Source: Pelagibacterium limicola | Lineage (GTDB): Bacteria; Pseudomonadota; Alphaproteobacteria; Rhizobiales; Devosiaceae | NCBI RefSeq assembly: GCF_015694405.1 | Contig: NZ_JADQDB010000001.1 | Coordinates: 248,001 to 312,000, forward strand | DNA: 64,000 bases | Direction of reading: 5' to 3' | Shown: positions 56,612 through 61,575 of the stretch, in pieces | Layout of the letters: each line of letters starts with the position of its first letter | Position numbering within the stretch: the first letter of the stretch is position 1 | Made by a program: the position numbers and the translations under genes | The notes under the pieces: model-generated | The model's input: only the letters and a program-made list of their open reading frames with translations | Database searches by the model: none | Told to the model about the DNA's origin: nothing

Positions 56612-56713
56612 ATGGCCCGCACCCTGATCCAGATGAGCATTGCCGGCGCGACCGGCGCAGTCCTTTTGACCATGATGGTGGTCGTCATGGCGTTCACCGG
56701 CGCCTTCGCCTGA
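56612..56713 (+). CDS. Miniprotein 2, single-pass membrane (33 aa)
   Basis: ATG 56612 follows AAGGAGG by 6-7 bases. The 33-residue product is MARTLIQMSIAGATGAV, then a hydrophobic stretch ending TGAFA. It parallels miniprotein 1 residue by residue over the helix (LxxMxxAxxTGAV ... TGAxA), with a shorter polar start. The pair is likely a local duplication. The strong ribosome sites argue that both are translated. Confidence 0.7.
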   Translation: MARTLIQMSIAGATGAVLLTMMVVVMAFTGAFA

Positions 56714-56740: not shown

Positions 56741-57253
56741 CTATCGCCCCGCCGCATCCCCCCGGCGGGGCGTTTCGTTTCCCGCCCACAGGCCGAGCCC
56801 CGCATCGAGCGAAAGCGTGCCCCCTCCCATCCGCATCAGAATGATCGTCATCGCTGCCCACGCGAGATGGAAATTGGCCCAACCATCGGGCACCGTAAGC
56901 TGGATGATCGCCGTCATCACCAGCAGCCCCAGCGCCGCATAACGCGTGAAGAGCCCCAGCACCAGCAGCACCGGCAGGACGATCTCCCCGATCGCCGCCG
57001 CCCAGGCCATGAGCCCCGGGAACGGATAGGCATACTGCTCCCCCAGGATGTGCAGCCTGAATTCCTGCCCGAACAGGAACAGCGTACTGGGCCGCATCAC
57101 GAGGAACCCGTCCCACTTGGTCAGCCCCGACCGCCAGAAGGGAACCGCCAGCGCAACCCGCAACAGGACGAGCGCCAGCCATAGCGGTACCGCCCCGATC
57201 CACCCGTCCACCCGCAAACAGGCCGCCCTTGCCCGCGCGCCAATCGCCGTCAT
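56741..57253 (-). CDS. DoxX-family membrane protein in bufferin operon
   Basis: From ATG 57253 this 170-residue protein has four membrane helices in the DoxX layout: PLWLALVLLRVALAVPFWRSGLTKWDGF, then PGLMAWAAAIGEIVLPVLLVLGLFTR, LLVMTAIIQLTV and HLAWAAMTIILMRMGG. It is the last gene of the bufA-bufB-bufC operon, overlapping bufC by 4 bases (ATGA), so translation is coupled. In bufferin operons a DoxX protein is often present; its role is not known. Confidence 0.88.
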   Translation of the reverse strand: MTAIGARARAACLRVDGWIGAVPLWLALVLLRVALAVPFWRSGLTKWDGFLVMRPSTLFLFGQEFRLHILGEQYAYPFPGLMAWAAAIGEIVLPVLLVLGLFTRYAALGLLVMTAIIQLTVPDGWANFHLAWAAMTIILMRMGGGTLSLDAGLGLWAGNETPRRGDAAGR

Positions 57254-58011
57254 GCCCCGTCCTTCCCCCTGAACGCGCCCAGCGCGCACAAGCCCGCGAG
57301 CGCCCTGCCGAAATCGAACCGCCCATCCGCCGCCAAAGCGGCCTCCGCCGCCGTGCCCAGCGTCGCCCCGGCATTCAGCGCTTCGATAAACGCCACATCC
57401 TGCTCTGGCACCACAGTCAGCCGCACTTCGGCCCGTGGCCGCGTGATAAGCACTGTCTCCCGGCGATCCGCGGCGACCTTCCTGCCCTGCCCCCCGCGCT
57501 GCACCGACCAGATCGAACCCACCGCATAAGGCGAGGCCAAAAGCCGTGCTGCTGGATGCAGCCGCAGGACGGTTTCTGCCAGGTCTGCCTCCCCGATCTC
57601 CGCCAGCGCGCGCATGTCGAGCACTGCAGCATCGGCGGCGTGATAACTCTGCGTGCAGAGATATTCGAGCCGCGCCAGGTCGGGCAGGTAGGGCAGCCCC
57701 GCGGCCGGCGGAAACTCTGCGATGAAGTCGCTGAAATCCTCACCATAAAACATCATTACCGGCGATCTGGGCTTGGCCTGCGCCACATAGGCACGCGCCA
57801 TGGAACTGAAAAACGCCTCCCCCACCACCCGCGCGACCGCCGGAAACCCGGCCAGCAGCGCGGAGACCAGCCCGGCATGGACGTTGTTGCGATAAACGGC
57901 GAACCGCAGCGGATCGGCCTCGCCCCGCACGCACCCCACCCCGCCCGGCACCGGCGCCTCGGGATCGAGCACTGCCCCCGCGAACCGAGCCTGCCAGCCC
58001 TCGACGCTCAT
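57250..58011 (-). CDS. BufC-like protein (DUF2063, MNIO partner)
   Basis: This 253-residue protein from ATG 58011 has the DUF2063 N-terminal helical domain ([62 protein letters not shown]) and a C-terminal beta-rich part. In bufferin biosynthesis the DUF2063 protein binds the precursor peptide and helps the MNIO enzyme. It overlaps bufB and the DoxX gene by 4 bases each, so the three genes are tightly coupled. Confidence 0.88.
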
Positions 58012-58871
58012 TGTGCCGCCACCGGCTTGTGCCGCACCGCATCGAGCGCCGCGTCCACCCGCGCCGCCTCCGCCGCCAGTTCGGCAAAGGCGGGCACATT
58101 GTTGTCCCACTCAACCAGCACGGGCTGTGGCCCGGTCCTTTCAAGCGTATGGATGAAGAGATCGAACACGTCCGGCCGCACCGCCGATCCATGCGTATCG
58201 ATCAATAGCCGATCCCCGGCACTGTCGGTGGTCTCGTCATACCCCGCAAGATGAATTTCTCCCACCAGATCGGTGGGAAACCGGTCGATATAGGCAAAGG
58301 GGTCCATCCGGTGATTGACCGCCGAGATCATCACATTGTTGACGTCGAGCAAAAGCCCGCATCCTGTCCGCCTGGCGATCCGCGCCAGAAATTCCGTCTC
58401 CTCGATGGTGCTTTCCTCGAACAGCACATAGGTCGAGGGATTCTCGAGCAGCATCCGCACTCCAAGCGCATCCTGCACCTCCGAGATATGCCCGCATACC
58501 CGGTCAAGCGTCGCTTCGGTGTAGGGCAGCGGCAGCAGGTCGTTGAGATAGCCCGTATCGTGCGTCGACCAGGCCAGATGCTCGGAAAACGACGCGGGCT
58601 TGTACCGCCCGATCAGCTTCTTGAGCCGTGCAAGATGATCCTTGTCCAGCGCCCCCTCGCCGCCGATCGAAAGCCCCACCCCGTGCAGCGAAAGCGGATA
58701 CCGCCCCACGATTGCCTCGAGATACCGGTGCGGCGCCCCGCCCTCCCCCATGTAGTTCTCCGCATGAACCTCGAAAAACCCCATATCAGGCCATCCCGAA
58801 ACGATATCGCCATAATGCTCGGCCTTAAGCCCAACCCCTGCCCTTGCGGGCAAAGTCGATGTGGTGGTCAT
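58008..58871 (-). CDS. BufB-like MNIO enzyme (DUF692)
   Basis: This 287-residue TIM-barrel enzyme starts at ATG 58871 (AAGGGAGA upstream). Metal-ligand regions of the DUF692/MNIO family are visible: [59 protein letters not shown] and [14 protein letters not shown] enzymes use iron to modify Cys in precursor peptides. Here the substrate is probably the small Cys-containing protein encoded upstream. The role is from family knowledge. Confidence 0.92.
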
Positions 58872-58968: not shown

Positions 58969-59259
58969 CTACGGCAGGTCCCGATCCAGTTCCGCGAGCG
59001 AGCCCATGCGCCCGCCCGGCAATTCGATGTCCTCGCACGTTCCCGCCGGAACCAGCGACCACGCATTGCCCTGATAATCGACCGTGGAGGTTCCGGCGCA
59101 TGTCGTGCCCGGCCCGGCGGCGCAATCGTTGGCACCGGCCATGGCAACGCCATAGCACTTCTCCATGGCGTCCATGTCCTGTGCGATTGCCGGTGCGGCT
59201 GTGGCCATCGCCGCGGCGAGCGAGGACGCGAGGGCGAGCGTTACAACCTTGCGATTCAT
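58969..59259 (-). CDS. Bufferin-type RiPP precursor (BufA1, DUF2282)
   Basis: This 96-residue protein from ATG 59259 has a signal peptide ending APAIAQDM (near 28) and four Cys in the mature part: [35 protein letters not shown] and GTCEDIEL. That is the DUF2282/BufA pattern; bufferins are Cys-modified copper-buffering peptides made by MNIO enzymes. It is first in the operon bufA-bufB-bufC-doxX, and a GTAAC-N17-CGAA promoter lies upstream. Confidence 0.9.
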
Positions 59260-59323
59260 GATGATCCATCCTTGTGTTGACTGACAGTACCGGCGCCGCG
59301 CCAATGCAGCACCATGTCCCCAC

Positions 59324-59349
59324 TTCGCGCCCTGACCCTGCTTTGTTAC
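59324..59349 (-). promoter_or_regulatory. ECF-type promoter of bufferin operon
   Basis: On the minus strand GTAAC (59349-59345) and CGAA (59327-59324) are 17 bases apart, about 65 bases before the bufA start codon. The same spacing and boxes occur before the ECF sigma gene at 59544-59569. The motif resembles the sigma-F promoters described for Caulobacter. Confidence 0.7.
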
Positions 59350-59460
59350 ACGGCGCGTTCCCGCACACGGCTTTGTGATCGCCCCGCCGCTCGACGCCGC
59401 CTGCTTTTGCGCTAAGAGCAATTTCGTTCAGGTGGGATCACCCCGTGTACCAACCTCGTC

Positions 59461-59483
59461 ATCACCCGCCTTGTCCGGGTGAT
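59461..59483. repeat. Short palindrome upstream of sigma gene
   Basis: ATCACCCG pairs with CGGGTGAT around CCTTGTC. It matches a widespread interspersed hairpin type of Rhizobiales genomes, from memory, and lies between the bufferin and sigma promoters. Confidence 0.4.
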
Positions 59484-59543
59484 CCAGCGGCGCGTTGTCC
59501 AGCGCGCAGAATGGTCGCCAGCACGGGGCGTCGGCTAACCAAA

Positions 59544-59569
59544 GTAACAATCGGCCGCCTGGGGGCGAA
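59544..59569 (+). promoter_or_regulatory. ECF-type promoter of sigma gene
   Basis: GTAAC (59544-59548) and CGAA (59566-59569) are 17 bases apart and 16 bases before the TTG start. Matching the bufA promoter, it suggests the sigma factor activates its own gene. Confidence 0.7.
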
Positions 59570-59585
59570 TTGAACGGGGAAGCCT

Positions 59586-60125
59586 TTGTCGCCGGAAAAG
59601 GACTGGGAACTGGCAGAGCGGATGCGGGCGGCGCTGGCGGGCGATGAGTCCGGCTATGCCGCGCTTCTGCATGAGGTTTCCGGCCTGGTCCGCGGCATCG
59701 CAAAGGCCAGGCTCGCGCCTGGATTGGGGATAGACCCGGAGGATATCGTGCAGGAAACGCTGCTGGCCATCCATCTCAAGCGCCACACATGGCAGCCCGC
59801 CCGGCCCATCGGCCCGTGGATTTACGCCATCGCGCGCCACAAGATTGCCGATGCCTGCCGGCGGCGTGGCCGTCGGGTCGAGATCGACATCTCCGATCTG
59901 GCCGACACCCTCGCCGCTCCTGTCGAGGAAACAGCTTTGGCACGCGATGTCGAACGCGCACTCGACGGGCTCTCCGAAGGCCAGCGCCGCGTCGTCGCGT
60001 CCGTCGGGATCGAAGGCGCCACCATCGGGGAAACCGCGCGCCGTCTTGGCATGAAGGAAACCGCCGTCCGCGTCTCGCTCCACCGCGGCCTCGCCAGCAT
60101 CGCCGCGAAATTTGGAAAGGCCTAG
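59586..60125 (+). CDS. ECF sigma factor (SigF-like)
   Basis: This 179-residue sigma factor starts at TTG 59586 (GGGGAAG 5 bases upstream). Region 2 has LARLAPGLGIDPEDIVQETLLAIHLK-type motifs (DPEDIVQETLLAIHLK seen directly) and WIYAIARHKIADACRRR; region 4 has LSEGQRRVVASVGIEGATIGETA and GMKETAVRVSLHRGL. The NrsF-like anti-sigma gene follows after 461 bases of repeats, the bufferin operon is divergent, and its own promoter has GTAAC-N17-CGAA. All this matches sigma-F, which answers to copper and other metals in Caulobacter. Confidence 0.9.
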   Translation: MSPEKDWELAERMRAALAGDESGYAALLHEVSGLVRGIAKARLAPGLGIDPEDIVQETLLAIHLKRHTWQPARPIGPWIYAIARHKIADACRRRGRRVEIDISDLADTLAAPVEETALARDVERALDGLSEGQRRVVASVGIEGATIGETARRLGMKETAVRVSLHRGLASIAAKFGKA

Positions 60126-60229
60126 ACGTGTCCGGTTTTGGCAGAAGCTCGCCCGAACGCTTCCTTCACTGTCCCGGCCTTGAGCCGTGCAGCGCTCGCA
60201 TCCGCCCTTTTAGAGATAACGAACGTTCC

Positions 60230-60294
60230 GGCTCTTGCGCCCCCTCCCCCTTGAGGGGAGGGAAGCGGCGGAGCCGCAGTATCCGTGCCCAAAC
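60230..60294. repeat. Intergenic repeat copy 1
   Basis: CCCCTCCCCCTTGAGGGGAGGG forms a snap-back stem, then the tail GAAGCGGCGGAGCCGCAGTA and TCCGTGCCCAAAC. The tail (with one G/A difference) is repeated at 60510-60534. Confidence 0.85.
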
Positions 60295-60376
60295 CATCCC
60301 CATCAAATCCGCTGCAAACGCTGCCACAGCAAAGGGCAGCGCTTGCATCGGCCGTTCTGGAGAACACCAAACTTCC

Positions 60377-60430
60377 GCCTCTTGCGCCCCCTCCCCCTTG
60401 AGGGGAGGGCCGGGGTGGGGGTGCAGCGAT
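60377..60430. repeat. Intergenic repeat copy 2
   Basis: It shares CTCTTGCGCCCCCTCCCCC and TTGAGGGGAGGG with copy 1 but continues with GCCGGGGTGGGGGTGCAGCG. The latter part resembles the bufA-bufB repeat. It is in inverted orientation relative to copy 3. Confidence 0.8.
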
Positions 60431-60465
60431 CTTTCCAAAGGCACCCCGCTTCCTGCAGGCTCCGA

Positions 60466-60534
60466 TACCCCCACCCTCAATCCCTCCCCTCAAGGGGGAG
60501 GGAAGCGGCGGAGCCGCGGTATCCGTGCCCAAAC
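60466..60534. repeat. Intergenic repeat copy 3 (inverted head)
   Basis: CCCTCCCCTCAAGGGGGAGGG inverts the head of copies 1 and 2, then repeats the copy-1 tail GAAGCGGCGGAGCCGCGGTA and TCCGTGCCCAAAC. Copies 2 and 3 face each other and could form one large hairpin. Confidence 0.85.
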
Positions 60535-60586
60535 GCGTTGCGCACCCGCGGCCGGTCGGTTCAACCATAAGACGGGCAGGCCCTGA

Positions 60587-61219
60587 ATGCGGACCGACGA
60601 TCTGATTGCCGCGCTTGCCGCCGACACCGCCAGCCGGCGCCCGGACCTCGACAGAAGCTGGCTGCTTGCCCTCGCTGCCGGCGGGCTGCTGGCCGTCCTC
60701 GTTTTCCTCGGTGCGGTGGGCCCCCGCGCTGACCTCGCTCAGGCCATCCAGACCCCGCGCTTCGATTTCAAGTTCGTGCTCACGCTATCGCTCGCTGTCC
60801 CGGCCTTTTTCGCGCTGCGTGCCCTGGCCATTCCCGGCGCCAAGGTCCCTTTGGCTGCCCTCGCACTGGCCCCCGCACTGGGCATCATGGCCGTCATCGC
60901 CGAACTCATCGTCCTGCCCGCCGATGTCTGGGCGATGAGTGCGGTGGGCAAGAACGCCCGTTATTGCCTCACCTTCATACCCTTGATTGGCGTGGCCCCG
61001 CTCGCCGCCTTCATCGCCGTCCTCCGCCATGGCGCACCCACGCGGCCCGCTCTTGCTGGCGCCGTCGCGGGGCTTCTGGCGGGTGGCATCGCTGCCACGC
61101 TTTATGCTATCCACTGCACCGACGATTCCCCACTCTTCGTCATGACCTGGTACCCCCTCGCCATTGCGATCCTAATCCTCGCCGGTGCCGCTCTAGGACG
61201 GATTTTTGCGCGCTGGTGA
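60587..61219 (+). CDS. NrsF-like anti-sigma factor (DUF1109)
   Basis: This 210-residue protein has a short N-terminal cytoplasmic helix (TDDLIAALAADTASR) and six hydrophobic segments (SWLLALAAGGLLAVLVFLGAV, FVLTLSLAVPAFFALRALA, PLAALALAPALGIMAVIAELIVLP and more). That is the DUF1109/NrsF layout, an anti-sigma that holds sigma-F at the membrane. A Cys in ARYCLTFIP and another in AIHCTDDSP match the paired periplasmic Cys reported to sense metals. It is downstream of the sigma gene after the repeats. Confidence 0.9.
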   Translation: MRTDDLIAALAADTASRRPDLDRSWLLALAAGGLLAVLVFLGAVGPRADLAQAIQTPRFDFKFVLTLSLAVPAFFALRALAIPGAKVPLAALALAPALGIMAVIAELIVLPADVWAMSAVGKNARYCLTFIPLIGVAPLAAFIAVLRHGAPTRPALAGAVAGLLAGGIAATLYAIHCTDDSPLFVMTWYPLAIAILILAGAALGRIFARW

Positions 61220-61371: not shown

Positions 61372-61575
61372 ATGTCGCTATTCCCTGTCAACGACAGGTC
61401 GGCAACCTGCCCGCACTGCAAGGCCAGAAATGTCCTGATCGGCAGTGACCTTGACCTCCATGCCCCCATTGCCTGCTCGACATGCCAACGAGTCATCGGC
61501 ACCTACGCCGACTTTGGCACTTCGGCCGCCGATGCGGAATCCCCTGACGCACCCATGGAAAATTGCGCATCGTGA
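61372..61575 (+). CDS. Small zinc-ribbon-like protein (67 aa)
   Basis: ATG 61372 (GGAAGGA upstream) opens 67 residues with CPHC (near 13-16) and CSTC (near 35-38), a typical four-Cys zinc-ribbon pair, and an acidic tail. It may bind nucleic acid or protein. No family is recognised. It stands alone between the anti-sigma and uvrB genes. Confidence 0.75.
   Translation: MSLFPVNDRSATCPHCKARNVLIGSDLDLHAPIACSTCQRVIGTYADFGTSAADAESPDAPMENCAS

Follow-up and report, generated by a model that had tools for sequence, protein, structure and literature searches.

A divergent sigF-nrsF and bufABCD locus in Pelagibacterium limicola is a further member of a described regulatory module, in which repeats fill the space separating sigF from nrsF

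Several published systems couple an ECF sigma factor and its anti-sigma factor to a neighboring target operon. In Caulobacter crescentus, nrsF (CC3252) is reported to be co-transcribed with sigF (CC3253), the unit CC3254–CC3257 encodes DUF2282, DUF692, DUF2063 and DoxX proteins, and the GTAACC-N16-CGAA promoters were examined by 5'RACE and with lacZ fusions (Kohler et al. 2012, PMC3511200). The numbering of these genes places the two units side by side and, together with the gene order, suggests that they are divergent. The cluster is described as copper-induced, and a sigF::Tn5 mutant as copper-sensitive (PMC8224329). In Sinorhizobium meliloti, SMb20530–SMb20527 are divergently transcribed from rpoE7-ecfR7, an ECF16 pair; a GTAAC...CGAA promoter is tabulated for each unit, and overexpression of RpoE7 raises both rpoE7-ecfR7 and SMb20530–SMb20527 (PMC6180224). 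The consensus reported for ECF16 is (T/C)GTAAC-N17-CGAA (PMC8315932), and a survey of MNIO enzymes reports sigma-70 and NrsF genes among Buf1 clusters (PMC12452194).

The window analyzed here is a 64,000-nucleotide stretch of the Pelagibacterium limicola genome, in which two operons diverge: bufABCD (59259 to 56741, minus strand) and sigF-nrsF (59586 to 61219, plus strand; Table 1). This locus is a real, conserved and already described regulatory module. The sequence-only reading had held that physical adjacency sets it apart from Caulobacter. This contrast fails because the adjacent arrangement is already in print: CC3252–CC3253 adjoin CC3254–CC3257 (PMC3511200), and the S. meliloti units are divergent (PMC6180224); for the same reason the mechanism is not new. 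The span first assigned to the locus, 58969–61219, takes in bufA, sigF and nrsF and omits bufB, bufC and bufD.

Table 1. Features of the divergent locus, in window coordinates.
Feature	Position	Strand	Details
bufD, DoxX-family membrane protein	56741..57253	-	PF07681
bufC, DUF2063 partner protein	57250..58011	-	PF09836
bufB, MNIO bufferin maturase	58008..58871	-	PF05114; NCBIfam MNIO_BufB NF050167, 374 bits (cut-off 310)
bufA, Buf1/DUF2282 bufferin precursor, 96 aa, four Cys	58969..59259	-	PF10048, E 4.3e-26
Putative SigF-type promoter of the bufferin operon, GTAAC-N17-CGAA	59324..59349	-	64 nt from CGAA to bufA ATG
Putative SigF-type promoter of sigF-nrsF, GTAAC-N17-CGAA	59544..59569	+	16 nt from CGAA to TTG start
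sigF, ECF sigma factor, 179 aa, TTG start	59586..60125	+	PF04542, PF08281; NCBIfam NF009165
Repeat-filled gap between sigF and nrsF, 461 bp	60126..60586	+	Absent from relatives examined
nrsF, NrsF-family membrane anti-sigma factor, 210 aa, C127 and C177	60587..61219	+	PF06532

Six gene families, the -35/-10 motif and the two NrsF cysteines, both of which are reported to be functional in Caulobacter, are common to CC3252–CC3257 and the present locus. The promoters read GTAACC-N16-CGAA in the Caulobacter consensus and GTAACA-N17-CGAA here, and whereas Caulobacter sigF and nrsF are co-transcribed, here they lie 461 bp apart; Caulobacter also has a further buf operon and a target of the YedY type. 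The S. meliloti locus shares the divergent order and a GTAAC...CGAA motif on both units; in a psymB record (L133), gene order and both motifs agree with what was published. The S. meliloti locus differs in being carried on a megaplasmid, with the sigma and anti-sigma genes only a few bases apart and the repeat-filled gap absent. Against the reported Buf1 clusters with sigma and NrsF genes, only the local gap is different. The Brucella bcrS-abcS/bcrXQP system, an ECF16 system responding to hypochlorous acid, likewise has adjacent sigma and anti-sigma genes with a target operon, but its reported output is a Met-rich peptide and an Msr system rather than a bufferin. The locus is thus another member of a published module, with a local repeat insertion between sigF and nrsF.

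Profile searches bore out the gene identities first assigned to bufA, the sigma factor and the NrsF-like protein. SigF contains ECF sigma regions 2 and 4 only, with PF04542 and PF08281 both above cut-off, and scores 229.5 bits against NF009165 (cut-off 198). The next gene on the same strand, although 461 bp away, is of the DUF1109/NrsF type, the pairing expected of ECF16/SigF. NrsF scores 181 bits against PF06532 (cut-off 26.8), and its C127 and C177 are retained in 81/81 aligned sequences; since it reaches only 108.1 bits against the NCBIfam equivalog NF042994 (cut-off 300), it is classed as a family member and not as the NCBI equivalog. BufA is a DUF2282 precursor whose four conserved cysteines are retained in 56/56 aligned sequences, and its N-terminus, judged by eye, resembles a Sec signal peptide; it falls below the NCBIfam BufA2 equivalog (23 bits, cut-off 60). 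As in Buf1 clusters, the MNIO maturase and DUF2063 partner genes adjoin bufA, and in comparison with solved structures BufB aligns to a DUF692 protein and to MbnB. A second genomic match to NrsF (C9:171294; 20.4 bits, under the cut-off) sits in an ORF that looks rhodanese-like by eye, and was dropped as a candidate nrsF. Two short ORFs without a Pfam match flank the locus, one encoding a 33-residue membrane-like peptide (56612–56710) and the other a 67-residue CxxC-type protein (61372–61572).

The two promoter motifs were found exactly where the sequence-only reading had placed them. They are the only matches to GTAAC-N16/17-CGAA in the window, both with a 17-nt spacer, whereas dinucleotide shuffles of the window gave a mean of 0.29 matches and two matches were reached in 2/100 shuffles. 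GTAAC is preceded by T in the buf promoter and by A in the sigF promoter, and both promoters fit the GTAAC-N17-CGAA core of the ECF16 consensus. Across the 3.47-Mb genome, the motif occurs at 17 sites, compared with 71 for the reversed pattern. Outside the locus, 11 of the 15 sites lie inside predicted ORFs, and among the remaining four only C5:517223 (minus strand) is correctly oriented a short distance, about 146 bp, ahead of a gene-like ORF. The motif is not rare in the genome, and only this one site elsewhere plausibly precedes a gene. The CGTA form of the motif also has 17 genomic sites; of eight inspected, C8:175950 (GTAACAA..CGTA) lies 98 bp before an ORF named by eye as dapF-like. Because of the 17 sites and the 11 of 15 others within ORFs, the pattern alone is weak evidence, and the case for the motif rests on its placement and conservation.

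To assess conservation, relatives were collected by scanning with an alignment of six NrsF sequences, since an initial alignment of 14 proved too diverse for a collection scan. This yielded 225 relatives, and the analysis used the best 80; owing to the six-sequence subset, these lean towards the window's own NrsF subgroup. Gene ends and gaps in relatives were extrapolated from tblastn ends, and the counts are not independent events, as the species are related. The divergent sigF/bufA order was found in 54 of the best 80 relatives, giving 55 loci with the window. A further 20 of the 80 carry sigF-nrsF with no buf gene detected. Among the rest, three gave a tblastn match to nrsF alone (L040, L053, L061), one has buf genes and nrsF with no tblastn match to sigF upstream of nrsF (L090), one has all six genes on the same strand, and one, on a short contig, has bufD and sigF-nrsF.

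Of the 55 divergent loci, 48 have the exact motif before bufA and 32 have it before sigF, with 32 having both. The reversed motif was found in 0/55 loci on either strand, and a first-order Markov control gave on average 0.11 and 0.09 loci per strand per shuffle. Where the sigF side lacks an exact match (23 loci), 22 read CGTA for CGAA and one (L076) reads CGCA. Of the seven bufA sides without one, five read GTAAC..CGTA, four of them 363–378 bp and one (L108) 85 bp away from the start, while L078 and L091 have no motif within one mismatch; in L102 the exact bufA-side motif is 410 bp out. Leader lengths are also alike: the 16 nt (sigF) and 64 nt (bufA) seen here compare with 7–27 and 49–101 nt across the other loci whose exact motifs lie within 350 bp. 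It could be argued that the two motifs are chance matches and that other promoters drive the operons, given that the 17 genomic matches show no enrichment over the 71 of the reversed form. However, the motif precedes both starts, recurs at the corresponding positions in 48 (bufA side) and 32 (sigF side) of 55 loci, where its reverse is found in none, and is the motif of the published S. meliloti and Caulobacter promoters. A chance origin is therefore very improbable, and was rejected on placement and on conservation relative to the reversed control.

The intergenic stretch between bufA and sigF measures 327 bp here and 174–303 bp in most relatives, and exceeds the typical range in 8 of the 54 other divergent loci (398–2167 bp). 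Between the two divergent promoters, window positions 59454–59513 belong to a dispersed repeat, with about 87% identity to three further sites. The CGTA form of the -10 element on the sigF side, seen in 22/55 divergent loci while the bufA promoter mostly retains CGAA, is possibly a way to hold self-activation of the sigma factor below activation of its target. Moreover, a second SigF-NrsF type was observed at L020–L026 and L033, with L023–L026 from the window's own genus. These loci have the same paired GTAAC..CGAA motifs with an output other than bufferin: in seven of the eight, a small Met-rich secreted protein comes next, followed by ORFs that by eye are cytochrome-b-like and molybdo-oxidoreductase-like, a gene set resembling Brucella bcrXQP.

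Taken with the published systems, these data suggest, with a probability of roughly 90%, that the locus joins an ECF16-type SigF/NrsF pair to a divergent Buf1 bufferin operon in a copper-responsive circuit. At rest, membrane-bound NrsF would hold SigF. Periplasmic metal or thiol stress, probably sensed through C127 and C177 of NrsF, would free the sigma factor to direct RNA polymerase to GTAAC-N17-CGAA before both bufABCD and its own gene. BufB and BufC would then convert BufA cysteines into thiooxazoles, and the modified peptide, once exported, would bind excess copper. The genes, their order and both conserved motifs are present in this genome; sigma dependence, copper induction, cysteine sensing, and the chemistry and function of the peptide are predicted by analogy with Caulobacter and S. 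meliloti. The closed circuit put forward in the sequence-only reading accordingly stands in its components, namely a shared SigF-type promoter, an NrsF-type anti-sigma factor and a bufferin operon, and falls in its adjacency contrast. Its self-activation fits the S. meliloti report, and its copper response, reported in Caulobacter (PMC8224329), would extend to this organism by relatedness. Several points count against this reading: the motif has 15 further matches across the genome, NrsF and BufA stay below the cut-offs of the NCBIfam equivalogs, and 20 of the best 80 relatives have sigF-nrsF with no buf gene detected.

The inducer may also differ between species, because the S. meliloti promoter fusions are reported as unresponsive to H2O2, Cd and chromate (PMC6180224). 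A circuit of the same type could take oxidative or chlorine stress, rather than copper, as its main input: Brucella BcrS belongs to an ECF16 system that responds to hypochlorous acid (PMC8315932), and genomes of the same genus as the window have the SigF type that adjoins a Met-rich peptide gene. The output encoded at this locus is, however, a bufferin, which is tied to copper in Caulobacter (PMC8224329), and we regard a predominantly oxidative or chlorine input as decidedly unlikely.

The distinguishing feature of the locus is the spacing of sigF and nrsF. The two genes are 461 bp apart, whereas the spacing ranges from -4 to +11 bp across the 76 other loci in which both were located, and is 2–3 bp in the same-genus loci L037–L039. 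The gap holds dispersed repeats with 28 genomic matches including the gap itself, mostly of 35–50 bp, and one longer match (query bases 209–404, 87%). A direct repeat of 112 nt (75%) and a perfect inverted repeat of 22 nt also lie within it. Palindromes from the gap recur elsewhere in the genome, often paired about 90 bp apart. The gap RNA is predicted to fold strongly (z -6.0), with 0/100 shuffles folding as well. Neither a sigma-70-like promoter nor a terminator was listed by the scan of the gap, and a promoter for nrsF within it was dropped as a candidate on the former result. A gap unique among 77 loci, strongly structured and with no such promoter found, might have uncoupled nrsF from sigF and left the switch leaky or partly constitutive. 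The anti-sigma gene is nevertheless intact with both cysteines, and with no terminator listed, read-through may suffice; we consider uncoupling rather unlikely. The corresponding proposal, that the repeat cluster now between the genes yields a structured RNA which lowers NrsF relative to SigF, and so gives a leaky or pre-induced switch with high standing bufferin, is equally tentative.

Overall, the locus brings a Pelagibacterium-type genome into a regulatory module already in print, and yields a count of paired-promoter conservation that includes a CGTA form of the sigF promoter. Apart from the gap and the promoter counts it is ordinary, and the repeat-filled gap offers a natural setting in which to ask whether a sigma factor and its anti-sigma factor need to be tightly coupled.
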